In this document: positions 10,801 to 50,251 of the stretch, piece after piece
How positions within the stretch are numbered: the first letter of the stretch is position 1
Layout of the letters: every line of letters starts with the position of its first letter
DNA from: Anagrus nilaparvatae
Lineage: Eukaryota > Arthropoda > Insecta > Hymenoptera > Mymaridae
Reading direction: 5' to 3'
Length of the DNA: 64,000 nt
NCBI GenBank assembly: GCA_022575985.1
Contig: JAKSXM010000246.1
Coordinates: forward strand, 10,620,001-10,684,000
Made by a program: the position numbers and the translations under genes
The notes under the pieces: generated by a model
Seen by the model: the letters and a program-made list of their open reading frames with translations, nothing else
Database searches by the model: none
Told to the model about the DNA's origin: nothing

Positions 10801-13800
10801 GTTAAAATGGCAATAAAATGTACAGCATTTCTGGTTAGTACAGCATTTATGACATTATTTCTTTATGGAAATGGACAAAGCATAACTGATGCAAATGATG
10901 AACTGTTTAATGACATGTAAGTCTTTGAAATTAGAATTTGTAAATTATTTAAGATAAAGGTAACACTGTAGTAATAATAGGTAATAATAATTATATACAA
11001 AAATCTTATGATTTCATCAATAAAAATAACATGATTAAGCTAAAAGTTGATCCAACTCAAAAATATGTCAAAGACATTAATGAAATAATAAATTCATGCA
11101 TTAATCTAATCAATAAAAAAGATAAAGTTAAGTACAAACAAATAAAATCACCTTTGTTTAATGGACTAATTAAATTGCATAAAGACAACATGCTTAACGA
11201 TAACTTAATTTTCAATAAAAATATTCTATACGATAAACTATTATAATAATATAGGATTTTTACGTCTGTGTTATGAATTTAATTCTAAATAATTATATTG
11301 AAACGATCTTAACAGCAAGGTGTAAATAAATTTAATCAATTATTTTGATTTTTGCTCGACGTTTCGGTTGAAACCTTCAACCCTCATTCAGGAGCTATAA
11401 TTTATTATAATAAATTAATATTTACAATGTTTATGTATAATTTATTCATTTTTCACATACCTTAATTTTAATATAGAAATTATTTACAATGATGATAACA
11501 GTAATAGATTGTAATTGCACAAATTTAAAAAATCCATCACTTTTTATGGTAGATATGTGAATGATTCATTTATCATAATTATGAAAAATAAACTACCCCT
11601 ACTACTTAAATATTTGAATAACATCCATGAACGGCTAAAATTCCCTTGTGAAAATGAAGGAGAAAAAATAGGTATCAACCAGATCAGTTTCTTAGACATG
11701 AAGATCATAAAAAATCAAGATAATTCCATCAGCATTGATTTATATAAAAAAGAAACTTTCTCAGGTAGATATGAGAATTATTTATCATCACACCCTATAG
11801 GAGTAAAAATAGGTATTGTCAAAAGTCTCATAGACAAAGTTTATAAATTATCTGACCCTCAGTTTCACCAAAAAAATATTACAGCTCTAAAAAGAGATTT
11901 ACTTCTTAACAATTACCCCATTTCCTTCATTAACAAACAAATAAAACACAAATATTATCAATATAAAAATATAAATAATAGCAATAATAATGATTCTAAT
12001 AATAGTACTTCCTTTGATTAAAAAAATACTTTCATATTACCACATTTAGGAAAGTTTACAAAAAAATTCCAAATAATATTAAAGAAAAACTATAATATTA
12101 ACACTGTTTACAGAACCCCTTTTAAAATGAATTCTATTATAAAATTACAAAAAGATAAGCTAGATAAATTCAATAACAAAAATGTAGTCTACAAAATTAA
12201 TTGCAAAATTTGTAATAAATCTTATGTTGGCCAAACTATGAGACTTTTGAAAACCAGATGTTCTGAACATAAAAACAACAAAAATCTTAAACCTGATTCA
12301 CACAATGTTATAACTAAACATCAGTTACAAGAATATCATAAATTCGATTGGGAAAATGTGCAAATACTACATAATGAAAAAAATTTAAATAAAAGAAACA
12401 TAGCAGAAATGTTTTATATTCAAAAACTCAAAAAACTAGCCCTAAACACAATGACAGATTTAAACAACTTTCCTAAGTCTTATGAACCATTAGTATACAC
12501 TTGCTGATTAATTAATTTCCCACATTAAAATATTTCAAATAAATAGTTTTTAAATTAAAAATTTCAAAATTTTGTTTCAAATATTATCTAATTTTGATAA
12601 ATCTTTTCAATAAGTTTAATAAATATCATTAACTCATGTGAAAGTTACTTTATCGTCAAAGTTACAGATATACCTAACATACTTGTATACCAGCCTTTAT
12701 ACTATATAAACTCGTAAAATTTCCTTTATAAGCCTATTTCACAATTACGTCACGAGGAGCAGATACTATACAAAAAATAACGCTGGTAGAAACTGAGCGC
12801 TCACTTTGTGTACATTTTATATGGAGAACCAGTAAAATTTTTTTTATTTTTATAAATAAATAATAAAATTGTTCTTTTTTCAAATTTTGATAAATATATT
12901 ATAAAAATATAACATTCAAAGTAAAAAATAATACATAGTTCGTAACATTTTTGTTGAAATATAATTCATATTTTAGGAACTAAAATCAAAAATCGTGTTT
13001 TTGAGACTCCGATTTTTCACAAAAAGACACGATTTTTTTTTTTAGTTCCTAAAATATGAATTATATTTCAACAAAAATGTTACGAACTATGTATTATTTT
13101 TTACTTTGAATGTTATATTTTTATAATATATTTATCAAAATTTGAAAAAAGAACAATTTTATTATTTATTTATAAAAATAAAAAAAATTTTACTGGTTCT
13201 CCATATAAAATGTACACAAAGTGAGCGCTCAGTTTCTACCAGCGTTATTTTTAAGTATACTATCTGCACTCGTGACGTAATCTGAAATCAGCTTATACTA
13301 TATATTTTATATAAACAAACAGTTCATAATTTTTCTGCTAGTCACTGTATAATACTAATACTCATTCTAAGATAATATATTTTTGTTGACTAATTTTAAA
13401 TATTAAAATATTGAAAAAAAATTTATATTTGAAGACTGTTGATGTATAATCAACTAAAAAATGTATATAATTAAAAATATTAAAAATAATTTTACTATAT
13501 GTTGTTACAAAGTTAAATTAAAAAATTTGTGCAATTACAATTTATTACTGTTATCATCATTGTAAATAATTTCTATATTAAAATTAAGGTATGTGAAAAA
13601 TGAATAAATTATACATAAACATTGTAAATATTAATTTATTATAATAAATTATAGCTCCTGCATGAGGGTTGAAGGTTTTAACCGAAACGTCGAGCAAAAA
13701 TCAAAATAATTGATTAAATTTATTTACACCTTGTCTGTTAAGATCGTTTCAATATAATTATATAAACTATTATGATTTTTGAAACTACATATATTTTCCT

Positions 13801-28506: not shown

Positions 28507-31500
28507 ATGGTTCAATCATATTATTTCAATAAATATTTCAAGATAATAAAATTTTTTTTACTTTTTCTTGGCGTTTGGCCTTACGAAAATGGAAAAATAT
28601 CTAAAACTATTAGATACATTTTTATTGTGCATAATTTCATGGTATTGATTCTTATGGTTGGTATTAATTAATATATATTAGAGTGTGTATTATTTTATTC
28701 CTTTTGGAATTTTTTCGCTCACTGGGTAAAAATGAAATGTTTTCAATACACGGAAAAAAATTCTAAGTTGTATTGACAAATAACTTTGTTGAAATATGCC
28801 AACAAAGTATTTGTTGAATTGTCATAGTTACTTAGTTAATTCAAACAGAGTGAAAATTTTATTTAAAAAAAATTATTTTTTTATTTTTTTTTTATTTTTT
28901 TTTTTTTTTTTAAATTAATTAATTTTTTTTTTATAATTATTTTTTTATATTTATTTATGTACTTATAGGTATATATTTATTAATTTAAAATCTGTTAAAA
29001 AAAAACCGAAGAAAAATTTTGACTGCTACTGGGATCGAACTGAGTATTGCGGCTTCCGAGACTGCGTGATTATCCATTCTGCTAACAGGACAGTTGTATT
29101 TAATAAAAAAATTTTAAGTACTATATGTTACAGATAATAATTTTCGAAATTATATGCAAAGTAAATTATACATACCCAGCGAAATGCATATTTAAAAATA
29201 TTAGTTAAAACTATCATAAATAATTTTTAGGAAATCCCATTTCTTTATTATAATAATAATGAATAATAATATAAACAAAAGCCGCTGCTGAAGAACATGT
29301 TTCGACTTGTCGCCGGCCGCGGTGTTAAATACATAAAAGGATAGAAAGAGAAAGAATGAACAAATATTTTAATATAAAAGAAAAAGCATTGACCTAACTA
29401 TTAAAATTAATCATATTAATGTTGTAGGTTGTTGGTTTATCTAACACTATGTTGATTCAACAAAGATTTAAGTGGTTAATTTAACAATTTTAATTTTGCT
29501 TGAATCAACAAAGTATTTGTTGGTTTAATGTTTTTATTTGACAATTCAACGTTTAATCTTTCCATTCAACAAACTTACAATACTAATCATATTTCAGTTA
29601 CGTAATACGTTTAGTTTGTCTTATATTTTTTTTACGTGTATGAAAAAGTACCACCAAGTATTTTGCTTAATTCTATCTGGAAACCGTTCCCGTAAGCATG
29701 TTTATTTTCCCATACTATGAGAATTAGGATATTGCAGATTTTCGTTAAAAATTGGAATAATTGCACACAGTTGGTCAAATTAATTATACCCTATATGTGA
29801 TTTTTTTCCTTTTTCATCCTAATTTATGATATTTCCATATAGATAGGTCAAAAACTCTTTAAAAAAAATTTGGCTATTTTATTTTTAAGCTAAATTATCT
29901 TAATATCTGAATTACTAGTGTATTTTAGTTCTGGTCAATGGGAGGTCTGGGAATAAAAATAATGATTTTCCGTTGAAATTTTAAAAATTTAAAGAAAACT
30001 ACACGATTTCAAAAAAAATTTTATTTATGATGAAATTTAAGTAAGTAAACGTAAAAATAATATCAAACAATTGAAATTTAAAAGAGAATCTATAGATGTT
30101 TAAAGTTTTTTTTTAGAATGTCTTTTTAAAATGTTTAAAAATAAATAAAATGATTAATTATTATCTTTTTGTAACATTTAATTGACAAGGGGAGACCAGA
30201 ACATTTGGGTCGCCAAATTACAATCTATAATAATAGATGACTTTAATATGTTGGGCTCATTGTTATACAATAGGGTTTTTTTGAAATCTTCCATATAACG
30301 CTGTAACCTTGCAAATTAACCAAAATATTTCCGGTTGATCTCATTTATTCCGTATAAATACTATATATTTAATTACTGTCAGCCGCATTGTAATGTTAAT
30401 TTGAAGTCTTGCAAAAGTTGTTCTATGTTATCATATGCAGGGGCCGTTCCTCCAAACGATGGCTGCGCTTTACCTCTTAGTTTAGTTGCAATCGTATTCA
30501 GTATCCATTTTTCACTATTTGGGCCATAAGTTTCCAAAATGTCTCTTATTACTTTAGCAAATGCACTTAGCGTTTCCGGACGCCCATCATAGTTTGGTAT
30601 TGTCGTTAAAGCAGCGTTTAAAGGGATATTTCCAAAGGGTGTCCTTTGTTCATCCGTAACTACATACATTCTTTCATGTGAATCAAAATTTTGTCTCCTA
30701 CCTTGTGTAGTTGTTGTTTTTGGTCGCGCCCCTTCCATTTGTCCTATAGCTTGGAATGGTACATTTGTTTCCATAACTCTTTGTGGTTCCTGATTTTGTT
30801 TTGGTATGTTACCACTAGCTATTTGTTTATATTTTTCTAATTCTCTAAGTAGCATATCATTTTGTTTTTGCATTTCTTGTATTTCATTTGCACTAAACAC
30901 TTTTTTATTTACTTTGTTATCTATGACCTCCGATATTTTTAAATTACTAAATTTGTCCAACGTATTATCAATTATATTATTGCTTTCCCTTTTTTGATTT
31001 TGTAAATCATGAAATGTTTGGTCAAATTTTTCTTGTTCCCCATTCATTTCGCGAGAGCTTCTTTTATTTTTTGCAACTTGTTTAAACTGTTTAAATTTCT
31101 TTTTAATTTTTATTTTTTGACGGAATTTTGTTAATTCCTAAAGGTTTTAATTTTATAAACCCTATTATAGCTTTATTTAAATAACCTCACTATCTTAAAT
31201 GCAATTATCAGAAAAAAAATGAATTTGTTAACGATTTACCTGTAGTATAATTAACTTCAATGACTTTATTAGTAACACAATAAAAATTATTGGAAAATAT
31301 AATCAAATAAATTTGTAGATTTAAAAAAATTAGGTTTTATACCCAAATTTTATTAGTAAATTTTTCCAATAAGTAACTTTTAACCAACTGAATTCCGCAA
31401 ATAAACCCCAATTTTAGTTATATTTAAAAAAATTGTGCTTGCAATTTTTGTTATATATTTTATTATTATACGTGTTTCAAATTAGACTTCTATTTACCTT

Positions 31501-34500
31501 AACTTCTTTTTCTATAAAAAAAATTATATTTCTTAGCGTAATGCCCTTTCTATTTTATTTATTTAATTTATTCGTGTTATACTTGCAGTCTATGGGTAGG
31601 CGCTTGTTTTGTATTTTAATATACCCCAAAAATTTTATTTTGTTATATTATTTAAAAAAAAAATTTTTTTTTACGTATACTAGTATTATTTCTTTTTATT
31701 TTATAAATCTTCTCTACTCAAATGGTATTTTTTTTGTAATATAATGAAAATGTACTTACCAAACTGTCAGGTAAAGAATTTGTTGTCCCTGCATTTCGCT
31801 TCCTTGGACTCGCCGCTATCCTCTAGTTACTGCGTCTAATCGATTGAAATCCTTAGAGGTTCCTTGAATTTCAGCTTACGTTACTTCCTAACTCCTTGGT
31901 TCTTTCTAGCTGTTGATGTTAATTTTTTTTTCAAATTATCCACGTATCTTCAGTTTGATTCCTTTGCTGTATATATATGTTTTGCTGATCCTTTTTCTTT
32001 AGGAGTTTCTCTCTCTTGATTTATTGAAAGAGGAAAAGAAAATTCTATTTCTACTTGTGTTTAATTATCTTGATGTAATATTTTAATGATGTAACTTTCT
32101 TGAGAGTATCCCCAACAAAAAAAAAATTTTTTTTTTGCAAAAAAAAAAATTTATTTTAATTTCTTTTTATTTATATATTTTTTGTTCCATCACCAACGGG
32201 CAATCCACCGGAGCCTCCAGATGTTCCGTCTGCTGGGGTTTGGACGTGAACGTTGTTATTATTTGAGTGTTCTTACCCGGTCCTAAGATTAATTAGTTTA
32301 ATCTTAAGAACTTTTTACCGGTGATGAAATAAATATAAACCTTTTAGTTAAATGTACTGGTTGTTTATTAATTGTTATGATCGTACTACAAAGGTTCAGT
32401 GAGATCTCTAGTGCATGGGCGATTTACCTCTATATTTAAAGCTTTTCTCCCCCGCGATCAGGAGTGGAGGTGTTTTTACTAAGTGGCTAAGATGCAAATT
32501 TTTAGGTATGGTCAGCGAGTATTCGCCAATCACGATTCATTAGACTCATCCCACTTTACTGTCAATCTAAAACTAATCTTTCTCACGCTTTTAGTTCTCA
32601 CGCGCTTACGTCTGGCCATCTCTAATTATTGCTGACTTAGCTTTTACTCCAATTAACGATTCTTATATCTTTAACTTAATATTTTAATTACTCGAATTTC
32701 CCCGGTCACAGATGATACTCCTGTGACACTATTCTCTCATCGCTATAGTCAATAAACCAAATGCCTATTTTCGGACCGAAATGACCAATTTTTAAATTGC
32801 TGCCAAAATTGCAATTTTCAATAAAAATAGGTCTTGTGCATCTGCAAATTTTTGTACAAGTTCCAAGTTTCCAAAAATTTCTTACTCGTTCTTTTAACTT
32901 TAGATATTTCTGAGATATGACTCCAAAAATGTATAGTGATAAAATATGCTTTTTTTTTTTAAACTTTAAATTGAGACTCTGACTTTAAATCATCATTTCT
33001 TTTTAGGTCTCAAAAATTTTGTATTAGCTCTAAGTTTCGAAAAATACTTTACTCGCTACTTTTTTATTACTCGTTTAGCAGATATGATAGTTTGAAAACA
33101 GAGTCTCAATTTAAAGTTTTTTAAAAAAAATCATATTTTATCACTAAATTTTTGAATTCATATCTCGGAAATATCTGAAGCTAAAAGAATGAGTTTTCAA
33201 CATTTAATATGACTTTAATAGTCATCCATAAATATAGATCGTAATTTTGCGAACCAAATGTTCCAGTCCAATTCCGGTTTCGTCTTGTGAGTTATTTTTT
33301 CTATATGGAAGTATCATAAACTATAACTCGCATAAAATGCTCATAGGCAAGGTTTCCTGACGGAATTAAGCAGAATCCTTGAAAGTATTATTTTTTTATG
33401 TTGAAAAGATCTCATTTTTACTCAGTGAGTAAGAAAATTCAAAAAAATAAAATAAAATAAGGGACACCCTATTATATATAACTAAAAGTAATTTTTAATA
33501 ATAAAACTTTTGAATTTCAGCTTATTAGAATATACAAAGATAAGAGTAAGCCAGATTTCATTGAAGAAATGGCATTTCTATTTTTATTTTTAATGATTGT
33601 TACTATTTATGCACACTTCATTATTAATAAAAATCATGTAGCTGAAGTTTCGACCGTTCGATGAACGAAATTTTTTTTTTAACTCAAATCAGCTAAAAAG
33701 TATAATAAATAAATAAATATAGTAAAAAACTCAAAAAATTAAATACACAGCCGATAGAAACAGCTAAAAACCAATAAATCAACCAAAATAAACATTAAAA
33801 AATCATTCTCGCATTTCAAAGGATTTTGAGATCATTAGATGAGATCTTCAACAACTATTAATTTCTTAGTTTGATTAAAAAATGTTTTTCAATACTCAGA
33901 AAAATTTTGGACTGATACCTGGATGGAAAACTATCTGAAATAAGGCAGCGATACAAATTACGTAAATATCGTATTTTAGTTACCAAGCATTTTCAGAACC
34001 TTGGCAGGGCATTACCCCGAATTTCTTTTTACGATATTAATCTAATTCTGTGCCAAGACTCCCAAAAAATTTTTGAGCCCATTTTAAGGGGGTTAAGTTG
34101 GTCAAATTAAGTCGATTAAAGATTGGACTTTTTTGGAAAAACAGCTTTTTTGAATTTCCTGGGATCTGAACCCAACTATTGTTTTCTTGTGTTGATTAAA
34201 AGATGTTTCTCAATACTCAAAAAAATTTTGGACATATTCCTAGGTGGTAAACTACCTCAAATGCGGCTTCGAATTAAATTACATAATTATCGTATTTTAG
34301 TTTCCAAGCATTTTCAGAGCCTTGGCAGGGCATTACCCCGAATTTTTTTTTATAATATTAATCTAATTATGTGCCAAAACTCCCAAAAAATTTTTGAGCC
34401 AATTTTAAGGGGGTTAAGTTGGTCAAATTAAGTTGATTAAAGATTGGACTTTTTTGGAAAAACAGCTTTTTTGAATTTCCTGGGATCTGAACCCAACTAT

Positions 34501-37500
34501 TGTTTTCTTGTGTTGATTAAAATATGTTTCTCAATACTAAAAAAAATTTTGGACATATTCCTAGGTGGTAAACTACCTTAAATACGGCTGCGAATCAAAT
34601 TACATAATTATCGTATTTTAGTTTCCAAGCATTTTCAGAACCTTGGTAGGGCATTACCCCGAATTTCTTTTTATAATATTAATCTAATTATGTGCCAAAA
34701 CTCCTAAAAAATTTTTGAGCCTATTTTAAGGGGGTTAAGTTGGTCAAATTAAGTTGATTAAAGATTGGACTTTTTTGAAAAAACAGCTTTTTTGAATTTC
34801 CTGGGATCTGAACCCAACTATTGTTTTCTTGTGTTGATTAAAAGATGTTTCTCAATACTCAAAAAAATTTTGGACATATTCCAAGGTGGTAAACTACCTC
34901 AAATGCGGCTTCGAATCAAATTACATAAATATCGTATTTTAGTTTCCAAGCATTTTCAGAGCCTTGGCAGGGCATTACCCCGAATTTCTTTTTATAATAT
35001 TAATCTAATTATGTGCCAAAACTCTCAAAAAATTTTTGAGCCCATTTTAAGGGGGTTAAGTTGGTCAAATTAAGTTGATTAAAGATTGGACTTTTTTGGA
35101 AAAACAGCTTTTTTGAATTTCCTGGGATCTGAACCCAACTATTGTTTTCTTGTGTTGATTAAAATATGTTTCTCAATACTCAAAAAAATTTTGGACATAT
35201 TCCTAGGTGGTAAACTACCTCAAATACGGCTGCGAATCAAATTACATAATTATCGTATTTTAGTTTACAAGCATTTTCAGAAACTTGGTAGGGCATTACC
35301 CCGAATTTCTTTTTATAATATTAATCTAATTATGTGCCAAAACTCCTAAAAAATTTTTGAGCCTATTTTAAGGGGGTTAAGTTGGTCAAATTAAGTTGAT
35401 TAAAGATTGGACTTTTTTAAAAAAACAGCTTTTTTGAATTTCCTGGGATCTGAACCCAACTATTGTTTTCTTGTGTTGATTAAAAGATGTTTCTCAATAC
35501 TCAAAAAAATTTTGGACATATTCCTAAGTGGTAAACTACCTCAAATGCGGCTGCGAATCAAATTACATAATTATCGTATTTTAGTTTCCAAGCATTTTCA
35601 GAACCTTGGCAGGGCATTACCCCGAATTTCTTTTTATATTATTAATCTAATTATGTGCCAAAACTCCCAAAAAATTTTTAAGCCCATTTTAAGGGGGTTA
35701 AGTTGGTCAAATTAAGTTGATTAAATATTGGACTTTTTTGGAAAAACAGCTTTTTTGAATTTCCTGGGATCTGAACCCAACTATTGTTTTCTTTTGTTGA
35801 TTAAAAGATGTTTCTCAATACTCAAAAAAATTTTGGACATATTCCTAGGTGGTAAACTACCTCAAATGCGGCTTCGAATCAAATTACATAAATATCGTAT
35901 TTTAGTTACCAAACATTTTCAGAGCCTTGGCAGGGCATTACCCCGAATTTCTTTTTATAATATTAATCTAATTATGTGCCAAAACTCCCAAAAAATTTTT
36001 GAGCCCATTTTAAGGGGGTTAAGTTGGTCAAATTAAGTTGATTAAAGATTGGACTTTTTTGGAAAAACAGCTTTTTTGAATTTCCTGGGATCTGAACCCA
36101 ACTATTGTTTTCTTGTGTTGATTAAAATATGTTTCTCAATACTCAAAAAAATTTTGGACATATTCCTAGGTGGTAAACTACCTCAAATACGGCTGCGAAT
36201 CAAATTACATAATTATCGTATTTTAGTTTCCAAGCATTTTCAGAACCTTGGTAGGGCATTACCCCGAATTCCTTTTGATAATATTAATCTAATTATGTGC
36301 CAAAACTCCCAAAAAATTTTTGAGCCCATTTTAGGGGGTTAAGTTGGTCAGATTAAGTTGATTAAAGATTGGACTTTTTTGGAAAAACAGCTTTTTAGAA
36401 TTTCCTGGGATCTGAACCCAACTATTGTTTTCTTGTGTTGATTAAAATATGTTTCTCAATACTCAAAAAAATTTTGGACATATTCCTAGGTGGTAAACTA
36501 CCTCAAATGCGGCTGCGAATCAAATTACATAATTATCGTATTTTAGTTTCCAAGCATTTTCAGAACCTTGGCAGGGCATTACCCCGAATTTCTTTTTATA
36601 ATATTAATCTTATTATGTGCCAAAACTCCCAAAAAATTTTTGATCCCATTTTAAGGGGGTTAAGTTGGTCAAATTAAGTTGATTAAAGATTGGACTTTTT
36701 TGGAAAAACAGCTTTTTTGAATTTCCTGGGATCTGAACCCAACTATTGTTTTCTTGTGTTGATTAAAATATGTTTCTCAATACTCAAAAAAATTTTGGAC
36801 ATATTCCTAGGTGGTAAACTACCTCAAATACGGCTGCGAATCAAATTACATAATTATCGTATTTTAGTTTCCAAGCATTTTCAGAACCTTGGTAGGGCAT
36901 TACCCCGAATTTCTTTTTATAATATTAATCTAATTATGTGCCAAAACTCCCAAAAATTGTTGAGCCTATTTTAAGGGGGTTAAGTTGGTCAAATTAAGTT
37001 GATTAAATATTGGACTTTTTTGGAAAAACAGCTTTTTTGAATTTCCTGGGATCTGAACCCAACTATTGTTTTCTTGTGTTAATTAAAATATGTTTCTCAA
37101 TACTCAAAAAAATTTTGGACATATTCCTAGGTGGTAAACTACCTCAAATGCGGCTGCGAATCAAATTACATAATTATCGTATTTTAGTTTCCAAGCATTT
37201 TCAGAAACTTGGTAGGGCATTACCCCGAATTTCTTTTTATAATATTAATCTAATTATGTGCCAAAACTCCTAAAAAATTTTTGAGCCTATTTTAAGGGGG
37301 TTAAGTTGGTCAAATTAAGTTGATTAAAGATTGGACTTTTTTGAAAAAACAGCTTTTTTGAATTTCCTGGGATCTGAACCCAACTATTGTTTTCTTGTGT
37401 TGATTAAAAGATGTTTCTCAATACTCAAAAAAATTTTGGACATATTCCTAAGTGGTAAACTACCTCAAATGCGGCTGCGAATCAAATTACATAATTATCG

Positions 37501-40500
37501 TATTTTAGTTTCCAAGCATTTTCAGAACCTTGGCAGGGCATTACCCCGAATTTCTTTTTATATTATTAATCTAATTATGTGCCAAAACTCCCAAAAAATT
37601 TTTAAGCCCATTTTAAGGGGGTTAAGTTGGTCAAATTAAGTTGATAAAATATTGGACTTTTTTGGAAAAACAGCTTTTTTGAATTTCCTGGGATCTGAAC
37701 CCAACTATTGTTTTCTTTTGTTGATTAAAAGATGTTTTTCAATACTCAAAAAAATTTTGGACATATTCCTAGGTGGTAAACTACCTCAAATGCGGCTTCG
37801 AATCAAATTACATAAATATCGTATTTTAGTTACCAAACATTTTCAGAGCCTTGGCAGGGCATTACCCCGAATTTCTTTTTATAATATTAATCTAATTATG
37901 TGCCAAAACTCCCAAAAAATTTTTGAGCCCATTTTAAGGGGGTTAAGTTGGTCAAATTAAGTTGATTAAAGATTGGACTTTTTTGGAAAAACAGCTTTTT
38001 TGAATTTCCTGGGATCTGAACCCAACAATTGTTTTCTTGTGTTGATTAAAATATGTTTCTCAATACTCAAAAAAATTTTGGACATATTCCTAGGTGGTAA
38101 ACTACCTCAAATACGGCTGCGAATCAAATTACATAATTATCGTATTTTAGTTTCCAAGCATTTTCAGAACCTTGGTAGGGCATTACCCCGAATTCCTTTT
38201 GATAATATTAATCTAATTATGTGCCAAAACTCCCAAAAAATTTTTGAGCCCATTTTAAGGGGGTTAAGTTGGTCAGATTAAGTTGATTAAAGATTGGACT
38301 TTTTTGGAAAAACAGCTTTTTTGAATTTCCTGGGATCTGAACCCAACTATTGTTTTCTTGTGTTGATTAAAATATGTTTCTCAATACTCAAAAAAATTTT
38401 GGACATATTCCTAGGTGGTAAACTACCTCAAATGCGGCTTCGAATCAAATTACATAAATATCGTATATTAGTTTCCAAGCATTTTCAGAGCCTTGGCAGG
38501 GCATTACCCCGAATTTCTTTTTATAATATTAATCTAATTATGTGCCAAAACTCCCAAAAAATTTTTGAGCCCATTTTAAGGGGGTTAAGTTGGTCAAATT
38601 AAGTTGATTAAAGATTAGACTTTTTTGGAAAAACAGCTTTTTTGAATTTCCTGGGATCTGAACCCAACTATTGTTTTCTTGTGTTGATTAAAATATGTTT
38701 CTCAATACTCAAAAAAATTTTGGACATATTCCTAGGTGGTAAACTACCTCAAATACGGCTGCGAATCAAATTACATAATTATCGTATTTTAGTTTACAAG
38801 CATTTTCAGAATCTTGGTAAGGCATTACCCCGAATTTCTTTTTATAATATTAATCTAATTATGTGCCAAAACTCCCAAAAAATTTTTGAGCCTATTTTAA
38901 GGGTGTTAAGTTGGTCAAATTAAGTTGATTAAAGATTGGACTTTTTTGAAAAAACAGCTTTTTTGAATTTCCTGGGATCTGAACCCAACTATTGTTTTCT
39001 TGTGTTGATTAAAATATGTTTCTCAATACTCAAAAAAATTTTGGACATATTCCTAGGTGGTAAACTACCTCAAATGCGGCTGCGAATCAAATTACATAAT
39101 TATCGTATTTTAGTTTCCAAGCATTTTCAGAACCTTGGCAGGGCATTACCCCGAATTTCTTTTTATATTATTAATCTAATTATGTGCCAAAACTCCCAAA
39201 AAACTTTTGAGCCCATTTTAAGGGGGTTAAGTTGGTCAAATTAAGTTGATTAAAGATTGGACTTTTTTGGAAAAACAGCTTTTTTGAATTTCCTGGGATC
39301 TGAACCCAACTATTGTTTTCTTGTGTTGATTAAAAGATGTTTCTCAATACTCAAAAAAATTTTGGACATATTCCTAGGTGGTAAACTACCTCAAATACGG
39401 CTGCGAATCAAATTACATAATTATCGTATTTTAGTTTCCAAACATTTTCAGAGCCTTGGCAGGGCATTACCCCGAATTTCTTTTTATAATATTAATCTAA
39501 TTATGTGCCAAAACTCCCAAAAAATTTTTGAGCCCATTTTAAGGGGGTTAAGTTGGTCAAATTAAGTTGATTAAAGATTGGACTTTTTTGGAAAAACAGC
39601 TTTTTTGAATTTCCTGGGATCTGAACCCAACTATTGTTTTCTTGTGTTGATTAAAATATGTTTCTCAATACTCAAAAAAATTTTGGACATATTCCTAGGT
39701 GGTAAACTACCTCAAATACGGCTGCGAATCAAATTACATAATTATCGTATTTTAGTTTCCAAGCATTTTCAGAACCTTGGTAGGGCATTACCCCGAATTT
39801 CTTTTTATAATATTAATCTAATTATGTGCCAAAACTCCCAAAAAATTTTTAAGCCCATTTTAAGGGGGTTAAGTTGGTCAAATTAAGTTGATTAAAGATT
39901 GGACTTTTTTGAAAAAACAGCTTTTTTGAATTTCCTGGGATCTGGACCCAACTATTGTTTTCTTGTGTTGATTAAAAGATGTTTCTCAATACTCAAAAAA
40001 ATTTTGGACATATTCCTAGGTGGTAAACTACCTCAAATGCGGCTTCGAATCAAATTACATAAATATCGTATTTTAGTTTCCAAGCATTTTCAGAGCCTTG
40101 GCAGGGCATTACCCCGAATTTCTTTTTATAATATTAATCTAATTATGTGCCAAAACTCCCAAAAAATTTTTGAGCCCATTTTAAGGGGGTTAAGTTGGTC
40201 AAATTAAGTTGATTAAAGATTGGACTTTTTTGGAAAAATAGCTTTTTTGAATTTCCTGGGATCTGAACCCAACTATTGTTTTCTTGTGTTGATTAAAATA
40301 TGTTTCTCAATACTCAAAAAAATTTTGGACATATTCCTAGGTGGTAAACTACCTCAAATGCGGCTGCGAATCAAATTACATAATTATCGTATTTTAGTTT
40401 CCAAGCATTTTCAGAACCTTGGCAGGGCATTACCCCGAATTTCTTTTTATAATATTAATCTTATTATGTGCCAAAACTCCCAAAAAATTTTTGATCCCAT

Positions 40501-43500
40501 TTTAAGGGGGTTAAGTTGGTCAAATTAAGTTGATTAAAGATTGGACTTTTTAGGAAAACAGCATTTTTAGAATTTCATGGGATCTGGCCCCAACTATTAT
40601 TTTCTTGTGTTGATAAATATATGTTTCTCAATACTCAAAAAAATTTTGGACATATTCCTAGGTGGTAAACTACCTCAAATGCGGCTGCGAATCAAATTAC
40701 GTAATTATCGTATTTTAGTTTCCAAGCATTTTCAGAACCTTGGCAGGACATTACCCCGAATTTCTTTTTACGATATTAATCTTATTCTGTGCCAAGACTC
40801 CCAACAAATTTTTGAGTCCATTTTAAGGGGGTTAAGTTTGTCAAATTAAGTCGATTAAACATTGGACTTTTTTGGAAAAACAGCTTTTTTGAATTTCCTG
40901 AGATCTGACCCCAACTATTATTTTCTTGTGTTGATAAATATATGTTTCTCAATACTCAAAAAAATTTTGGACATATTCCTAGGTGGTAAACTACCTCAAA
41001 TGCGGCTGCGAATCAAATTACGTAATTATCGTATTTTAGTTTCCAAGCATTTTCAGAACCTTGGCAGGACATTACCCCGAATTTCTTTTTTACGATATTA
41101 ATCTTATTCTGTGCCAAGACTCCCAACAAATTTTTGAGCCCCTTTAAGGGGGTTAAGCTTGTCAAATTAAGTCGCTCAAACATTGGACTTTTTTGGAAAA
41201 ACAGCTTTTTTGAATTTCCTGAGATCTGACCCCAAGTATTGTTTTCTTGTGTGATGAAAATATGTTTCTCAATATTTAAACAAATTTTAGACATATTCGT
41301 AGGTGGTAAACTACCTCAAATGCAGCTGCGATTCAAAATACATAAATATCGGATTTTTGTGTCCAAGTATTTTCAGAACCTTGGCAGGACATTACCCCGA
41401 ATTTCTTTTTATAATATTAATCTAATTATGTGCCAATACTCCTAAAAAATTTTTGAGCCAATTTTAAGGGGGTTAAATTGGCCAAATTAAGTCGATTAAA
41501 TATTGTTCATTTTTGGAAAAACAGCTTTTTTAGATTTTCATGGGATCTGGCCCCATCTATTGTTTTCTTGTGTTGATTACTCTCATTACTCAATTAAAAT
41601 TGGGACAGTTTCGTGGGCGGTAACTACCTCAAATGCAGCGGCGATTCAAATTACAAAAATATCGTATTTCAGTTGCCAAGCATTTTCAGAACCTTGGCTG
41701 GGCATAACCCCTAATTTCTTTTCAAACATTCGATTTTATTGTAATTTGATTCGCAGCCGCATTTGAGGTAGTTTACTACCTAGGAATATGTTCAAAAATT
41801 TTTTGAGTATTGAGAAACATTTTTCAATCAACATTAGAAAAGAATAGTTGGGGTCAGATCCCAGAAAATTCTAAAAAAGCTGTTTTTTCAAAAATGAGCA
41901 ATCTTTAAATGACTTAATTTGATCAATTGAACCCCCTTAAAATGGGCTAAAAAATTTTTTGGGAGTTTTGGCACATAATTAGATTAATATTATAAAAAGA
42001 AATTCGGGGTAATGCCCTACCAAGGTTCTGAAAATGCTTGGAAACTAAAATACGATAATTATGTAATTTGAATCGCAGCCGCATTTGAGGTAGTTTACCA
42101 CCTAGGAATATGTCCAAAATTTTTTTGAGTATTGAGAAACATATTTTAATCAACACAAGAAAACAATAGATGGGGCCAGATCCCATGAAATTCTAAAAAT
42201 GCTGTTTTCTTAAACATGACCAATCTTTAATCAACTTAATTTGACCAACTTAACCCCCTTAAAATGGGCTCAAAAATTTTTTAGGTGTTTTGGCACAGAA
42301 GTAGATTAATATCGTAAAAAGAAATTCTGAGTAATGCCCTGTCAAGGTTCTGAAAATGATTGGAAACTACAATACGATATTTATGTTATTTGATTCGCAG
42401 CCGCATTTGAGGTAGTTTACCACCTAGGAATATGTCCAAAATTTGTTTGAGTATTGAGAAACATATTTTAATCAACACAAGAAATTAATAGTTGGGGTCA
42501 GATCCCAGGAAATTCAAAAAAGCTGTTTTTCCAAAAAAGACCAATGTTTAATCGACTTAATTTGACCAACTTAACCCCCTTAAAATGGGCTCAAAAATTT
42601 TTTGTGAGTCTTGGCACAGAATTAGATTAATATCGTAAAAAGAATTTCGGGGTAATACCCTGCCAAGGTTCTGAAAATGCTTGGTAACTAAAATACGATA
42701 TTTACGTAATTTGTATCGCAGCCTTATTTCAGATAGTTTTCCACCCAGGTATGAGTCCAAAATTTTTCTGAGTATTGAAAAAAATTTTTTAATCAACCTA
42801 AGAAATTAACAGTTGGTGAAGATATCATATAATGATCTCAAAATCCTTTGAAATGCGAGAATGATTTTTTATTGTATATTTTGGTTGATTTATTGGTTTT
42901 TATCTGTTTCTATCGGCTGTTTATTTAATTTTTTGAATTTTTTACTATATTTATTTATTATATATACTTTTTAGCAGATTTGAGCTAAAAAAAAAATTTC
43001 GTTCATCGAACGGTCGAAACTTCAACTACATTAAAAATCAGGTAATTCGTTGACTCATTTCACAATTATTATTTTTTATTCGACTACTTATGTTCCATTC
43101 TTAATGCATTGTCAATATAAATATTATGATCTAATAATTGTTTTAATAATTATTGTAAAATGTAGATAAAATCAAGTATGGATGATTGTGATCAAGAATG
43201 GAAAAATTTAATTGATCGGAAAGAACTTGAAATTGCGATAAAATCATCAGAAAGAGGAAATTTTACTTGCTATTGTTATATTGGTATTAATTGATAATTT
43301 TAAATTAAGATTTTTAATAATTTCAAATTTTAAAATAAAATGTTTTACAGCTATGTTATTGTTAATAATAATATTAGTTTCACTAATTCCATTAATAACT
43401 CCGATAATGGATTATTATTATCCCTTAAATGGAGCAAGAGTTAAAGATCACCTGTTTGCAATGGAACGATTTATTGATGAGCAAGAACATTTTTATAAAA

Positions 43501-46500
43501 TTTACATTCATTCAGTAGTAACTTTTGCTTTAGCAGACTTAACTGTCATGGCTGTAGCTTGTTATTTTGCAATCTTTACTTATCAACTAATAGGTGCAAG
43601 CAAAATTCTCAGGTATTAAAAGTAACTTATTTTATTTTTTTATTTTTTAATTTATATAAATTTAAAAAATTATTTTAGCTACCGCATAAAAGTTGCTTTA
43701 AATAATTCAAATTCAGAAGAAGTAAAATACAAAAGAATAATTGATTGTATTAATTTTCACCAAAGATTTCTCCAGTAAGGATTTATTTTTTTTTTATTTT
43801 TTCAGAAAATTGCATGAGGTATTTAAGGTTTAATGGACCTCAGTTGGGCAAACAAAATATTTGTTGTCGAAAGAGTAACTACACGCAAAAAATTTATTAT
43901 AAAATATGTTGCCACTCAATTACAATCAAAGAAAATATTATATATATTCTTCGTTACAATGTACAAGGTTTAGAAACGGTTAACCTTCCCATGTTAACCA
44001 TATATGGACAGCCACCATTTAATGGTCATGTCTGTCTTTGTCCATGCGGGTCATTTCTCAGAACCATGAAATCTAGATTTTTCGAAAACAGACCCATAAG
44101 AGAATTTTGCAAAAACATTTAATCCCGGATTCGTAAAATCAGAATGCATCAAAGTACAGAATAGCATAAATTCCGAAATTTATTTTATGATATCTTGTAT
44201 TTCATGGTAAATTTTTGCTTTTTACAAATAATAACTTCTGATATTTTATGAAAATTGCACTGATTTTTAGGGATTTCGATTTATCTGCCTTACAAAACCT
44301 CTAGTTTTTAATATGCTGCCGTAAAAGGTTTATATGCTTAATTTTCGGGATTCGGAAAACTGCCCCCGATGGACAACGAAAATTATGACCAGTGAATGGC
44401 GCCCATATGGACATTTAGACTGCCAAAAAAAAAAACGACTTTTTGATTTTTTAAGGCGCTCAAGCGCTTTTGGATGTCATTTAATGAAAAAATAAGTTCC
44501 GCGTAAACCGTATCTAAAAATATTTAGTCGTTGGACCGCGCCAAAGCATTTTTGATTTTTGAAAATGTGCTCAGGAACGTCGGGCGGGACTAAAGCTATT
44601 AAACTTAAAAGGCAACATAAAAACAAAATTTTGGGGGGTATTTCATAGTTTTTTTGGTCGCTAAAAACGATGGAATCATCTGTTTTAAATAATTTTTTTA
44701 AGGCAAAAAGTTATGGGCTAATTTCAGTGACAAAAATATCAAAAATTGGACAGTTTTTGACGTCAAAAACTTGCTGCGGACTAAAAAATGTTTAGAAATT
44801 ATTTTAAAAAGGCATTCCGCATATTTTTTGGGTCACTAAAAACGATGAAATTGGTTATTTTTATTTATTCTTGATGGATTCAGAGTTATGGGCCAAATAT
44901 TGTAGTTTGAATTTCCAAATTCAGCATTTTTTTGAGTTATATGACTGTCAAACGTGCAGAGAACTTTTCTGATCCCGTGGAAAGGTAAATTATCATATTT
45001 TTGTATTTTTCTAACTAGCGCAGAATTAGTTACTTAGATTTTTTTTAAGGGTGCTAGTTTAGTTCAGTGTCACCACAATGTCATAAAATATGGTTTTCAG
45101 GCAAATTTCCAAATAATGCTGTCATCTTACAATTCAACCAAAATATTTCCAATTGGTCTCATTTTTTTTTTTTTGTATAAAATACACCTTTCAATCCCCG
45201 TAATCGGCAATTTTTCATCGCCGATTCTCTCATCGTAATAGTTAATAAACCAAATGCCCATTTTTGGCCCTAAATGACCAATTTTTAAGTTGCTACAAAA
45301 ATTAAAATTTTCATTAAAAATAGGTCTTATAGGTCATAAAAATTTTATAAAAACTTTAAGTTTCCAAAATTTTTTTACTTGTTTAATTTCAATTTTTCGT
45401 TTAGAAGAAATGATAATTTAAAGACAGAGTCTCAATTTGAGGTTTTTAAAAAAAAATCATATTTTATCATTAAATTTGTAGAACCATATCTCGGAAATAT
45501 CTAAAGCTAAAGGGACGAGTAAGAAATTTTTGGAAACTTGGAACTTACAAAAAGTTATTGTAACAAATACAACTCAATTTTATCAAAAAATTAAACTTTA
45601 GCACCAATTTAAAAATTGGTCATTTACGGCCGAAAATGGGCAATTGGTTTATTAACTATTACGATGAGAGAATCGGCGTTGAAAAATTGCCGATTACGGG
45701 GATTGAAAGGTGTATTTTATACACAAAAAAAATGAGACCAACTGGAAATATTTTTGTTGAATTGCAAGATGATGACAACATTATTTGGAAAATTGACTGA
45801 AAACCAAATTTTATGACATTGTGATAACACTGAACTAAACTAGCACACTTAAAAAAAATCTAAGAAATTAATTCTGCACTATAGTTAAAAAAACACAAAA
45901 ATATGATAATTTACCTTTCTACAGGTTCAGAAAAGTTATCTGTACGCTTGACAGTCATTTAACTCAAAAAAAAACTAACTTTGGAAAATCAAGCTACTGA
46001 ATCCATCAAGAATAAATAAAAATAACCAATTTCATCGTTTTTAGTGACCCATGTAAAAAAATTGTCTAATTGCCAGCTAATAGCTGGCTAATAGCCGGCT
46101 ATTAGCTGGCTACGATTTGGCTACGAACTGGATACCAATTTATATTTTACAAATTTTCTTTGAAATTTTATTCCGGAAACTCCCACATCGAAAAAAGAAT
46201 CTGCTTGCCGCAAGCGGGATTCCGTTTGCGAAAAACGGTAAAAACTTTTGCGACAAATAGATTACTTTTTTTCAGTGCACGATTGATAATTTTTTATCAT
46301 TTTATAACTTTTTGATCTGCAAAAAAAATCATTCATCAATTTTGTATTTTTCTTCGGGAAGCCATTCCAATTCGCGTTTCATGATTTTGTTCCTTATCAA
46401 TTTACATTTCCGCACCAACTCGTTTTACCAAATTTTAGGTTACTTCAAAAAATTTAACTTTTCTTCTTCCCAATGACATTTGAACTCTAAGAAATTAAGA

Positions 46501-49500
46501 AAATAATTTTTCTCTGCGGAAACGAGAAAGTTTCTCGTCGTATGAAAAAATTTGTTCATGATCGATTTTCGGAAATTTTTTTCTTGTATACACAATATTG
46601 TTAACTTGAAAATTTACGGAAAAAATAAAATTTTTAACTGATATTTTTTTTTATTTAATGAAATATTCTTAAGTTCACTATAAATTTAAATATTTTAATT
46701 TCTTTAGATGGCTAAATTGGATCGACTCGCGCGTTAGGCTTCACAAAAAAAACTAACTTGATATGATTTGAAACTATTTAGTCCGCAGCAAGTTTTTGAC
46801 GTCAAAAACTGTTCAATTTTTGATATTTTTACCTCTGAAATTAGCTCATAACTTTATGCCTAAAAAAAATAATTCAAAATAGATGATTCCATTGTTTTTA
46901 GCGACCAAAAAAACTATGAAATACCCCCCGAAATTTTATTTTTATGTTGCCTTTTAAGTTTAGTAGCTTAAGTCCCGCTCGACGTTCCTGAGCCCATTTT
47001 AAAAAATCAAAAATGCTTTGGTGCTGTCCAACGACTAAATATTTTTAGATGCGGTTTACGCAGAACTTATTTTTTCATTAAATGACATCCAAAAACGCTT
47101 GAGCACCTTAAAAATCCAAAAGTCGATTTTTTTTTTGGCAGTCTAATTGGACATTGTTGAATCCATCCATGTACTTTCTTGTTTGTCCAACATTAAAGCA
47201 ATTGAAAACTCCACATAGAGTGCAACATGAGTTGTACGGAGCTGTACATTTTTCGCCGAAAAAATCGCAATATTCTTTGCATTGCTTTGCAACTCCACGT
47301 TACTCCATGTGGAGTTTTCAGTTGGTTGAGGGTTGTGTTTGATGGTATTTAAAAAAATGCCCCAAAGATATTGATACATATAATAAACTATGACAAGGTC
47401 AATTTTTTATTCAATAGTTTAAAATTTTTTAAATTATAATTTTCTACGAGATTTTGCTGTCAACCAGTTTAATTCATTCCTTAATGAGGTTATTGAGACA
47501 CGTTCATATCTTCCTACAACAAAGATAAATCTTATAGCAAGGTTGAAGATTCTTTCAACCTTATCCATAAGTGTAACATCAAGGGCATTATAGACAAGAC
47601 AACAGTAATCAAAAAATGGAGCAATCAGGGATGAAACTAAAAGTGTGCGGAGACTGTAGGATAGTAGTCTCGACTTTAAACGTAACCTATGTAGTGTATA
47701 GTGTACAGTTTTTGAAATTTTCATTATGTGCAACGATCAATTTAATGTGGGAGTTAAAATCACACCTAAATTTAGAACCGATGTAGAATATGGTATAGTC
47801 ACATTTGAAACTGTGATTGAAGGAATAACTGTGACACATTCAATATTCAAATTATTCAATTGAAAAACAGTTCCAAAATTAATAGCTTTTATTTTATTTG
47901 GATTCAATTTAAGATGATTTCATGTTGTCCAGTCTACAATTGAATTGACATCATTTTGCATATCATTTATTGCAGAATTATAAGAGGAAGCCTTACTTGG
48001 ATAAATATTTGCAAGTCATCAACAAACAGCTCATAGTGACAGTAATTTATTTCATTTAGAATGGAATCCATGTAGATTAGGAACAAAATGGGTCCAAGCA
48101 CTGAGCCTTGGGGTACACCCGAACTGGTCGTAATAAACTCAGCAGGATCTCCATTTTCATCTACTACTGCTTGCTGACGAAAAATCAAATAGTCATGAAA
48201 CCATTGGATTGTGGTTTGAGAGAAACCTAGATTATATAACCTCTCTAATAATATGCTATGATCAATATTGTATCAAATCCCTTAGAGAAATCAAACATCA
48301 ACAGGATCGTTACTAGACCCAATTCAACTCCACGACGAATGGTGTCAGTAAGGTTCAATAGAACCATTTGAGTACTAAAATTTTTCCTATAGCCCGATTG
48401 ATAAATATTTATTAAGTTATTTGTTTCTAAATATGCAGTAACCGGATCAACGATTAATCTCTCTAAGGCTTTTGCAAGATGTGACATATTCGCTACCGGG
48501 CGAGTATCTGATGGGGACAATGGGCGAGGAATTTTACTTAACGCTTTAATAAAAATTCTTTTCCAACATGCAGGAAATTTAAGTTTTTTAATTGATAAAT
48601 TGAATAGATAGGTTATATAATCTAGTAAGACATGTATAGAGTCTTTATAGTGTCTAAGGTTAAACCCGTCTGGACTAAGCCCTTTACATTTAGGCAATAT
48701 TTTTATTAGTGTCTTAGAAACTTGTTCAGTAGTTACAGGTGTAAGTGAGAATGTAGTTTCTACTTGTTTTACATGTGTAAAACAAGGTAGCAATATACAA
48801 GGACGCGAGGACATATTTATTTGCGAGAAAAAAGTATTTATCTCTGAGGCAGTGAGAAATTGTAAGGGAGAAGTGTAGGTAGTTTATGTGAGTCCTATAG
48901 AGTCAAATATCCGCCAAAGAGTGGAAAAATCTGACGAAGTTAGATTCACGTCAATAGCTATATTATATCAACACGCAAAAAAAATTTAATAAAATTTAAC
49001 TTAATTGCAAATTTTGTAAATCCAAATTTTTAAATATTGGTAAATATTGGTAACCATAAATTATTAAATTTTATTAAAAAAATTGAGACTATAGTTTTGT
49101 AAAAGAATTATATTAGTAAATTTTACTAAAAATTTTTTAGTGACATTAATCAAACTTGATATAATAAATTTTATTTTTTGTATGCGTGAAAGTTTTTAAA
49201 ATGGATCGAATTAAATAATTATTTTATTATTTTATTTTTACAGTACGTTTGATAAATTCAAAAAGTGCCATACAAAGATTTTAGGATTTATGATGTTTCT
49301 ATCACTTGCATTGATAAGTTTTTGTGGTGTTGCTGTAAGTTAAAATATTTTAAAAATATTATTAATTATTATTGCCATAATAGTGTATATAATATTCTAT
49401 TAATTATGAAGTGCACCTCAATTTGACAGATTTAATTACTAATAGATTAAAATTTAGAAAATTTTGTAAATTACTTAATAATTATAGATTTCAATTAGAT

Positions 49501-50251
49501 GGCGAATTTAATTAATAATATCTTTATTAATTTTTTGTAGATAATTCTTAAAGATGACGTTAAAATGGCATTAAAATGCACTGCATTTTTGGTGGGTATA
49601 GCAGTTATGACATTATTACTTTATGAACATGGACAAAGTATTACCGATACAAACGATGAACTATTTTATAACATGTAAGACATTTATTTACTTTTTTTCC
49701 TAGAAAATTTGCTATATTTTTTCTTAAAATAAGAAAATTTACTGGTATTATTTAAAGGTCAGGTCTATTTACCCCAAAAATCTTACCCTCACTACTTTTT
49801 TTTCTGTAAATAAGAAATTTCCCTGTTGCTCTGATCAAATAAGATTAGAAGATCATGAATGAAATGAATTAATGAAATGAACCCGAATAGAAAAACCGAA
49901 TTGAATAAATAAATATATACATAAATAAATTAAATTAAAATTACATATTTAAAATGTTGAATAAATATATAAAAAAAAATCATTTTATGGTTACAGATAC
50001 TTTGCAAATTGGGAAGATGCCTCAACAAAAGTACGAAAATTAGTATACATGATGTTATTGAGATGTTCAAGACGTTTTCAAATTCATGCATTTTTTATAC
50101 CAGTGAACATGGAAACTTATACCCAGGTACGTTATTGAATTATAATTTTTATTTAATATTTTTTGCTATTGGATACAAATTGGTAAATAATTTTTAGGTT
50201 ATGAAAACATCTACTACGTATTTCACGTTTTTAAGAAAAACTCAAAACTAA
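28507..50251 (+). CDS. Odorant receptor OR-B, nine exons; donor of exon 2 rebuilt by a transposon
   Basis: Exons: 28507-28656, 33521-33637, 43166-43283, 43351-43612, 43679-43774, 49244-49334, 49541-49674, 49997-50126 and 50198-50251; 1152 nt, 383 residues. Exon lengths and phases equal those of OR-A except the last exon. Family signs repeat: GVWPYENG, the loop DHLFAMERFIDEQEHFYKIY, YFANWEDAS, and the end STTYFTFLRKTQN. A 9.4-kb foldback element sits 2 bp before the original exon 2 end; with the TIR-provided donor AT|GTAGCT the frame stays open (last codon CAT instead of CAG). If that donor is not used, reading runs into TGA at 33662-33664 and the gene is dead. Introns 1, 2 and 5 (4.9, 9.5 and 5.5 kb) are filled with nested mobile elements. 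No other defect is visible. Confidence 0.78.
28730..29720. mobile_element. Insertion in OR-B intron 1 with CAACAAA palindromes
   Basis: Absent from the matching part of OR-C intron 1. CAACAAAGTATTTGTTG occurs near both ends (28799 and 29508) and short TTGACAAATAA/TTGACAATTCAAC stretches are inverted to each other. The middle holds poly-T tracts and a tRNA-like sequence. The borders are approximate. Confidence 0.5.
29022..29096 (-). other. tRNA-like sequence in OR-B intron 1
   Basis: On the minus strand TAGCAGAATGG fits the Pol III A box and AGTTCGATCCC fits the B box, about 35 bp apart as in a tRNA. An anticodon-arm-like GCAGTCTCGGAAGCCGC lies between. The acceptor and T stems pair badly, so it is a tRNA-derived SINE head or pseudogene, not a working tRNA. 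Confidence 0.5.
30379..31047 (-). pseudogene. LTR-retrotransposon gag fragment
   Basis: A 222-codon frame opening with ATG. Residues 1-70 are charged and coiled-coil-like (EIQEMQKQNDMLLRELEKYK). From about 145 it reads LTTIPNYDGRPETLSAFAKV and ILNTIATKLRGKAQPSF, typical of the capsid-like region of Ty3/Gypsy-type gag proteins in insects. The frame stops after about 222 codons with no nucleocapsid zinc knuckle, protease or polymerase downstream, so only the 5' end of the element survives. Expression as an intact particle is not possible from this copy. Confidence 0.7.
32190..32728 (-). repeat. Probable LTR of the gag-bearing relic
   Basis: On the minus strand the unit begins TGTCACAGGAGT at 32728, the usual TG start, and has AATAAA near 32366. 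It lies upstream of gag in the correct order. The inner (CA) border and primer-binding site are not obvious; 32190 is an estimate. No second LTR is present. Confidence 0.4.
33628..33635 (+). repeat. 8-bp target duplication, left
   Basis: TAAAAATC, repeated exactly at 43032-43039. Removing one copy plus the element restores AAT CAG|GTAATT, the exon end expected from OR-A (AAT CAG|GTAGTT). Confidence 0.88.
33850..41740 (+). repeat. 321-bp satellite, ~25 forward monomers
   Basis: Monomers begin at the phrase GATTGGACTTTTTTGG near 34121 and recur every 320-321 bp to about 41501. Most are very similar; the first and the last three or four are more diverged, as expected when unequal exchange homogenises the middle. 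Each monomer holds about 102 codons open from a TTG (not ATG) to TAA; 321 is divisible by three, which keeps the frames in register. Differences between monomers change amino acids freely, so protein coding is not supported. Confidence 0.92.
35086..38293 (+). repeat. Higher-order repeat of 1924 bp (six monomers)
   Basis: Monomers at 35086, 35407, 35728 and 36049 share private variants with those at 37010, 37331, 37652 and 37973: a TTTCAGAAACTTGG variant in the first, CCTAAGTGG and TATATTATTAATC in the second, CTTTTGTTG and TTAGTTACCAAAC in the third, CCTTTTGATAATA in the fourth. The offset is 1924 bp, i.e. six monomers minus two bases. Confidence 0.85.
41745..42830 (-). repeat. Inverted satellite monomers (right arm)
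   Basis: About 3.4 monomers in reverse orientation. The open frames 41947-42186 and 42557-42796 on the minus strand are the same pseudo-frames as in the forward array. The outermost one has the diverged sequence also seen at 33880-34100. Confidence 0.88.
44011..44404. mobile_element. Second full copy of the 9-bp-TSD MITE
   Basis: Flanked by ATATGGACA (44002-44010 and 44405-44413), with ends GCCACCATTTAATGGTCATG and GACCAGTGAATGGCGCCC. The inner part matches 25339-25743 in inverse orientation (AAATCTAGATTTTTCGAAAACAG, CTTCTGATATTTTATGA). It lies in OR-B intron 5. Confidence 0.75.
44416..47147. mobile_element. Foldback element in OR-B intron 5
   Basis: Ends TAGACTGCCAAAAAAAA and TTTTTTTTGGCAGTCTA, flanked by the 8-bp duplication TGGACATT (44408-44415 and 47148-47155), which overlaps the right target duplication of the neighbouring MITE. 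The arms are about 1 kb with palindrome centre near 45460. The core (TCTCATCGTAATAGTTAATAAACC) resembles the core of the foldbacks at 53551 and in OR-B intron 1. The right arm has about 0.72 kb of extra sequence at 46062-46785. Confidence 0.8.
46062..46785. mobile_element. Insertion in right arm of the intron 5 foldback
   Basis: It is absent from the mirror position near 44780. It begins with a run of TAGCTGGCTA/TAGCCGGCTA palindromes (46070-46120), then AT-rich sequence without coding content. Identity unknown. Confidence 0.55.
47434..48962 (-). pseudogene. Non-LTR retrotransposon reverse transcriptase, broken
   Basis: Read on the minus strand from 48962: LQFLTASEINTFFSQINMSS, then KCKGLSPDGFNLRHYK, DTRPVANMSHLAKALERLI, YQSGYRKNFSTQMVLL, and the palm box FDFSKGFDTI; after a frameshift near 48240 it resumes at SGVPQGSVLGPILFLIYMDS and ELFVDDLQIF (the Y/F-A-D-D box, here FVDD). 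A third piece (47434-47733) corresponds to the C-terminal region ending SLRNELNWL. At least two frame breaks. Jockey/CR1-like. It lies antisense in OR-B intron 5. Confidence 0.8.

Follow-up and report, generated by a model that had tools for sequence, protein, structure and literature searches.

A foldback transposon in an odorant receptor exon of Anagrus nilaparvatae brings a weak candidate splice donor to the position of the original one

The ends of transposons are already known to act as splice donors. In plants, the start of the maize DNA transposon Ds or Ds1 supplies such sites (PMC5432752). Many Introners carry duplications and inverted ends, and some bring one splice site with them and take the other from the target; a Chrysochromulina Introner family carries its 5' site and shows no inverted ends, and the median lengths of Introner families range from 30 to 654 nt (PMC9860276). 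In build, the closest described element is Tetris, a foldback of Drosophila virilis with long inverted repeats that hold tandem repeats and have no coding capacity; three complete copies have duplications of 8-9 bp, an autonomous copy was not found, and most foldbacks are ascribed to the Mutator superfamily (PMC4079207).

The locus described here lies in a window, by which we mean the whole stretch of 64,000 nucleotides that was analysed, from the 489-Mb genome of Anagrus nilaparvatae. A foldback element of 9396 bp sits there inside exon 2 of an odorant receptor gene, OR-B. The case combines features known from Ds, from Introners and from foldbacks such as Tetris and, unless efficient rescue were seen in RNA, none of its steps is new in kind. 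The Ds paper surveys insertions in introns, whereas the element here sits in an exon and its splicing is predicted only (PMC5432752). Unlike Introners, the OR-B element lengthens an existing intron and creates no new one. Introners are characterised by many copies that are spliced out of exons as new introns; here, no host exon was recognised at the 17 other insertion sites examined. Literature searches joining odorant receptor, insertion and donor, and weak 5' sites with exon definition, returned no paper matching all terms, and a search on transposons spliced out returned nothing on topic.

OR-B comprises nine exons, every one open, encoding 383 residues (Table 1). By its predicted protein, it is an insect odorant receptor: residues 62-371 of 383 match Pfam 7tm_6 (PF02949) with an E-value of 2.8e-32 and 112.5 bits against a cut-off of 25.8. 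The second receptor gene of the window, OR-A, lies at 7804-15341, and a third, OR-C, starts in the window and runs on past its right edge. The receptor family is large, with at least 171 exon-by-exon matches to OR-B at E ≤ 1 in the genome (124 of 654 candidates scored). Among 5.8 billion proteins, 1603 candidate homologues of OR-B included none at E ≤ 0.001, and a PDB sequence search with the first 198-residue piece of OR-B gave no match.

Table 1. Coordinates of OR-B, the inserted element and the splice sites around it (positions in the window)
Feature	Position	Strand	Basis
OR-B exon 1, from conserved ATG, donor ATG|GTTGGT	28507..28656	+	tblastn with OR-A frames; comparison with OR-C
OR-B exon 2 as remade, 117 nt, ending AAAAATCAT	33521..33637	+	paralogous exons
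Target-site duplication, left copy TAAAAATC	33628..33635	.	
Non-autonomous foldback transposon, 9396 bp	33636..43031	.	
Left unique terminus, type I arm	33636..33851	+	
Candidate donor CAT|GTAGCT from element terminus	33638..33643	+	
Left tandem array, 321-bp unit, ~24.6 copies	33852..41722	+	
Right inverted tandem array, ~3.4 copies	41731..42816	-	
Right unique terminus, type II arm	42817..43031	-	
Predicted 67-nt poison exon, acceptor TACTTTTTAG|CAG in right arm, donor CAG|GTAATT	42975..43041	+	
Target-site duplication, right copy TAAAAATC	43032..43039	.	
Surviving ancestral exon-2 donor GTAATT	43042..43047	+	
OR-B exon 3	43166..43283	+	
OR-B exon 4	43351..43612	+	
OR-B exon 5	43679..43774	+	
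OR-B exon 6	49244..49334	+	
OR-B exon 7	49541..49674	+	
OR-B exon 8	49997..50126	+	
OR-B exon 9, ends ...FTFLRKTQN stop	50198..50251	+	

When the empty site is joined (33521-33635 plus 43040-43041, ending in CAG), exon 2 measures 117 nt. The corresponding exon of OR-A has this length too (8037-8153; donor CAG|GTAGTT), and that of OR-C lies at 66412-66528 in window-relative numbering, with donor CAG|GTAATT. In all nine paralogues read (OR-A, OR-C and seven fetched stretches), the exon ends in AG|GT, with G at -1; in one of the seven, L072, the alignment stops two residues short, the exon apparently lacks one base and its end was placed by visual inspection. The paralogous sequences thus give good support to CAG|GTAATT as the ancestral OR-B exon end, which the element has since split.

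Between OR-B and OR-C, dS is 0.16 and dN/dS 0.67; with OR-A as outgroup, 19 amino-acid changes fall on the OR-B branch and 29 on the OR-C branch. By these counts OR-B has not decayed faster than OR-C, which is no proof of a working gene because the insertion is young, and the open frame probably says little about present function. In all three receptor genes, the conserved exon-1 ATG (28507, 7804 and 63566) is directly preceded by an acceptor-like TTTAAG, and a further upstream exon may exist. Two other stretches of the window hold apparent mobile-element sequence. Within intron 7 of OR-A, a frame at 12022-12507 has a GIY-YIG domain and adjoins a frame at 11515-12021, a pair that resembles a remnant of a Penelope-like retroelement. 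On the minus strand, 55078-57833 holds apparent non-LTR retrotransposon frames, one of which matches reverse transcriptase strongly (PF00078, 6.4e-39).

The initial annotation had placed the insertion at 33635/33636, two bases short of where exon 2 originally ended, and the duplication, the joined site and the paralogues bear this out to the base. At the left junction, TAAAAATC is followed by the element start ATGTAGCTGAAG; at the right, the element end CTTCAACTACAT, where the family version reads CTTCAGCTACAT, is followed by the second TAAAAATC, AG and the ancestral GTAATT. The 8-bp duplication is perfect and both element ends are intact. A repeat search of the window delimited two arms of 837 nt each (33636-34472 and 42195-43031) that are 93% complementary, and each is closed by roughly 215 bp of unique sequence, outside the opposed arrays of the 321-bp unit. 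When 300 positions of each arm are set against the arm consensus, 4 differ in the left arm, one of them in five other copies as well, and 2 in the right, a total of 6 in 600 nt. Because the differences are so few, we regard the OR-B copy as young, though not obviously the youngest of its family.

To gauge the family, a 25-base pattern of the terminus was matched to the genome with at most three mismatches, giving 153 matches (86 of the best 100 exact) against none for the reversed control; 153 ends correspond to perhaps 75 elements. Exact 8-bp duplications flank 16 of 18 copies, that is, 15 of the 17 others and the OR-B copy; of the two imperfect ones, one matches at 7 of 8 positions and one is only 6 bp long. 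A type I arm at one end is paired with a type II arm at the other in 17 of 18 cases. All 16 copies read whole have the same foldback build, a terminus of about 210-216 bp followed by inverted 321-bp arrays, with arms of less than one to about 69 units and, in 10 of 13 copies, a 17-bp spacer where the arrays meet. No frame of at least 150 residues occurs in 12 of 13 copies, and in the thirteenth (46 kb) only within a nested insertion. In the search for an autonomous copy, three more, picked because they were short or probably of an older subfamily, were likewise arrays, and the only frames in them were of 92-111 residues, within the arrays. The nested insertion belongs to a copy on contig C62 (L054), which about 41 kb of foreign DNA interrupts; its 728-residue frame, at L054:2942-5125 on the minus strand, weakly matches the transposase family tnp2 (PF02992, 26.5 bits, below the cut-off of 28.6).

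Very long array-bearing inverted repeats with duplications of about 8-10 bp place the family among FB-like foldbacks. It resembles Tetris in its tandem-repeat inverted arms, lack of coding content and duplication of about 8 bp, a likeness in build; the unit and arm lengths, the number of ends, the spacer and the duplication counts given above distinguish it from Tetris as the cited account presents that element (PMC4079207). An 8-bp duplication is also a mark of hAT elements, and the family shares it. In hAT, duplications follow the pattern nTnnnnAn and ends are of the CAG/TAG type. Here, the duplications are A/T-rich and roughly palindromic: position 2 is A in 14 and position 7 is T in 12 of all 18 sites, both imperfect ones included. 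The ends read ATGTAG. This terminus and insertion-site pattern do not look like those of hAT.

Among 40 arm starts, 38 read ATGTAGCT, the OR-B right arm reads ATGTAGTT and one reads ATGAAGCT. The terminal GT is present in 39 of the 40 and would for this reason be a constant feature of the transposon terminus, without any shaping by OR-B. At the 17 further insertion sites, open frames over the joined empty sites gave no recognised host exon; six of these sites were judged also by eye, and four frames at three sites were compared with Pfam, none with a match. This is weak evidence for the lack of host exons, and it leaves OR-B as the only insertion in a recognised exon among 18 sites, of perhaps 75 copies. 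The longest frame across an empty site (L019/L020), 161 residues on the minus strand, has no Pfam match and may be chance or an unrecognised exon; another (L035/L036) resembles reverse transcriptase by eye, also with no Pfam match.

The near-constant terminus ATGTAGCT yields CAT|GTAGCT at the interrupted junction, so that exon 2 would keep its 117 nt and its phase, with a change from Gln to His. This geometry had been read correctly in the initial annotation, as had the start of exon 3 at 43166 and the fate of an unspliced message, whose frame continues past the insertion as HVAEVSTVR and ends at TGA 33662-33664. As a splice site, the new donor scores as weak. Its predicted pairing with U1, -1.1 kcal/mol, is weaker than that of all 48 receptor donors with which we compared it (next weakest, -1.6); of the window's 2921 GTs, 71% equal or exceed it in U1 pairing. 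A matrix derived from these 48 donors, which come from OR-A, OR-B, OR-C and the fetched paralogues and are not independent (28 distinct), gives it 0.47, above 5 of the 48 and within the score range of working donors. Of the window's GTs, 7% score as well as the new donor and 0.03% as well as the ancestral one. On the earlier matrix that this one replaced, 13% of the window's GTs score as well as the new donor; the splice scores leave out enhancers and branch points.

The new donor carries T at -1, G at +4 and C at +5; the lack of G at both -1 and +5 is shared by 3 of the 48 real donors. Its likeness to the OR-A donor GTAGTT, to which the initial annotation pointed, holds for the sequence as stated but not for position -1, where OR-A has G. 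The suggestion of a transposon end carrying its own splice signal agrees with the near-invariant GT but not with the U1 pairing. In the predicted RNA, five of the six bases of GTAGCT are paired if the far arm is included (through a 30-base linker), and the motif is mostly paired without the far arm too; for 33600-33740 by itself, the local fold does not exceed chance (z -1.11, with 31 of 200 shuffles at least as strong). A cryptic donor within exon 2, at 33546 (AGA|GTAAGC), pairs better with U1 (-5.3) but scores -4.84 on the 48-donor matrix (1.72 on the earlier matrix) and would leave a 25-nt exon; it was rejected. Overall, these models portray the new donor as possible but poor, with most signals against efficient use.

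The ancestral donor survives beyond the element, with a U1 pairing of -8.1 kcal/mol. When the two donors are scored against each other, as the initial annotation had proposed, 33638 holds its place above some receptor donors on the matrix but falls far behind 43042 in pairing. Upstream of the ancestral donor, the right arm provides an acceptor-like site at 42975 that scores 5.86, in the top 2% of the window's 2654 AGs; for 24 real acceptors, leave-one-out scores run from -1.85 to 8.56 around a median of 5.25, and the exon 3 acceptor reaches 2.29. The predicted exon between the two sites reads, in phase 0, Q, I and a stop. A far weaker acceptor at 42985 (score -3.40) would instead yield an open, in-frame exon of 57 nt. 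In all 40 arms, the best acceptor-like site lies 56-58 nt from the end, with scores of 3.9 to 10.0, and the terminal GT together with this site would give each copy an intron-like outline in both orientations. The 442 nt from 42600 to 43041 contain 18 AGs, among which one good-scoring acceptor by chance is not improbable; we therefore regard a poison-exon effect of 42975 with 43042 as likely and claim no function for it. The initial proposal that the element is spliced out through the new donor is thus sound in its geometry but faces a better-scoring exon with a stop, whose acceptor-like site that annotation had passed over.

Exon skipping offers a further outcome. Exon 2 is in phase 0 on both sides, and its neighbouring introns now measure 4.9 and 9.5 kb; skipping would join the 150-nt exon 1 in frame to exon 3, at the cost of 39 residues with a hydrophobic stretch.

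We give a probability of roughly 55% to a reading in which the insertion leads to partial use of the weak new donor and to a poison exon, and so to mixed transcripts. A young, non-autonomous foldback DNA transposon would have entered exon 2 of OR-B two bases before its end, duplicating 8 bp, and its near-constant start would by coincidence have put back a GT where exon length and phase stay unchanged. This donor, being weak, is probably used only in part. The strong ancestral donor would have been moved past the element, 67 nt behind the acceptor-like site of the arm, and the two may now bound an additional exon that soon runs into a stop. The outcome would be transcripts that skip exon 2 or include the poison exon, with a minority of normal length coding for the Gln-to-His receptor. 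Most likely, then, OR-B transcripts are mixed and mostly defective, with some normal-length splicing possible.

Two other readings take the splicing to one side or the other. A full rescue, in which the transposon end is an efficient donor for exon 2, the 9.5-kb intron is removed and the altered receptor works, seems rather unlikely to us: exon length and phase are exact, the GT is all but constant in the family, the matrix score exceeds that of 5 of 48 receptor donors and OR-B is otherwise open, but the U1 pairing is the weakest of all, the bases at -1, +4 and +5 are unfavourable, the site is paired in the predicted RNA, and an acceptor and a donor that score better come before exon 3. Quite improbable, in our estimate, is a loss of function only, with exon 2 skipped or the transcript truncated, the GT never used and its position a coincidence. 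An exon flanked by such long introns and without a strong donor might well be passed over, and its phase would let skipping keep the frame; the new donor is, however, inside the matrix range of real donors.

Two more readings would make the splice sites irrelevant or illusory. If the foldback array were heterochromatinised, or its hairpin RNA processed, the locus would be silent; the two opposed satellite-like arrays, 7.9 kb and 1.1 kb long, could form long double-stranded RNA, and we still consider this very unlikely. Large inverted arrays are hard to assemble, and the element is made of them, but that it was misplaced into OR-B by the assembly is scarcely credible in view of the perfect 8-bp duplication, the intact ends, the empty paralogues in register and the exact duplications at 15 of 17 other copies. 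The position of the insertion is a striking coincidence: by arithmetic, only 8 of the 1149 OR-B coding positions would keep the exon length with the element, less than 1% per exonic insertion, and with splicing from the new donor the frame would be kept at about one-third. It needs no special cause, given perhaps 75 copies and one seen in an exon among 18, and harmless-looking insertions are also those that survive.

That a foldback terminus can serve as a 5' splice site whichever way the element lies, and that a 9.4-kb insertion has been absorbed to leave a working receptor with one residue changed, is a claim we hold doubtful. If the junction between the remade exon 2 and exon 3 is real, OR-B would show, in an animal and in nature, that a coding exon can tolerate a very large DNA transposon because the transposon's own end supplies the donor, and the perhaps 75 such elements, with their 153 ends, would let the idea be tested site by site. 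If it is not, the insertion would illustrate how apparent harmlessness in the sequence can go together with a poison exon built from the strongest signals that are left. In either case, the analysis adds a description of a foldback family that consists of satellite-like arrays.
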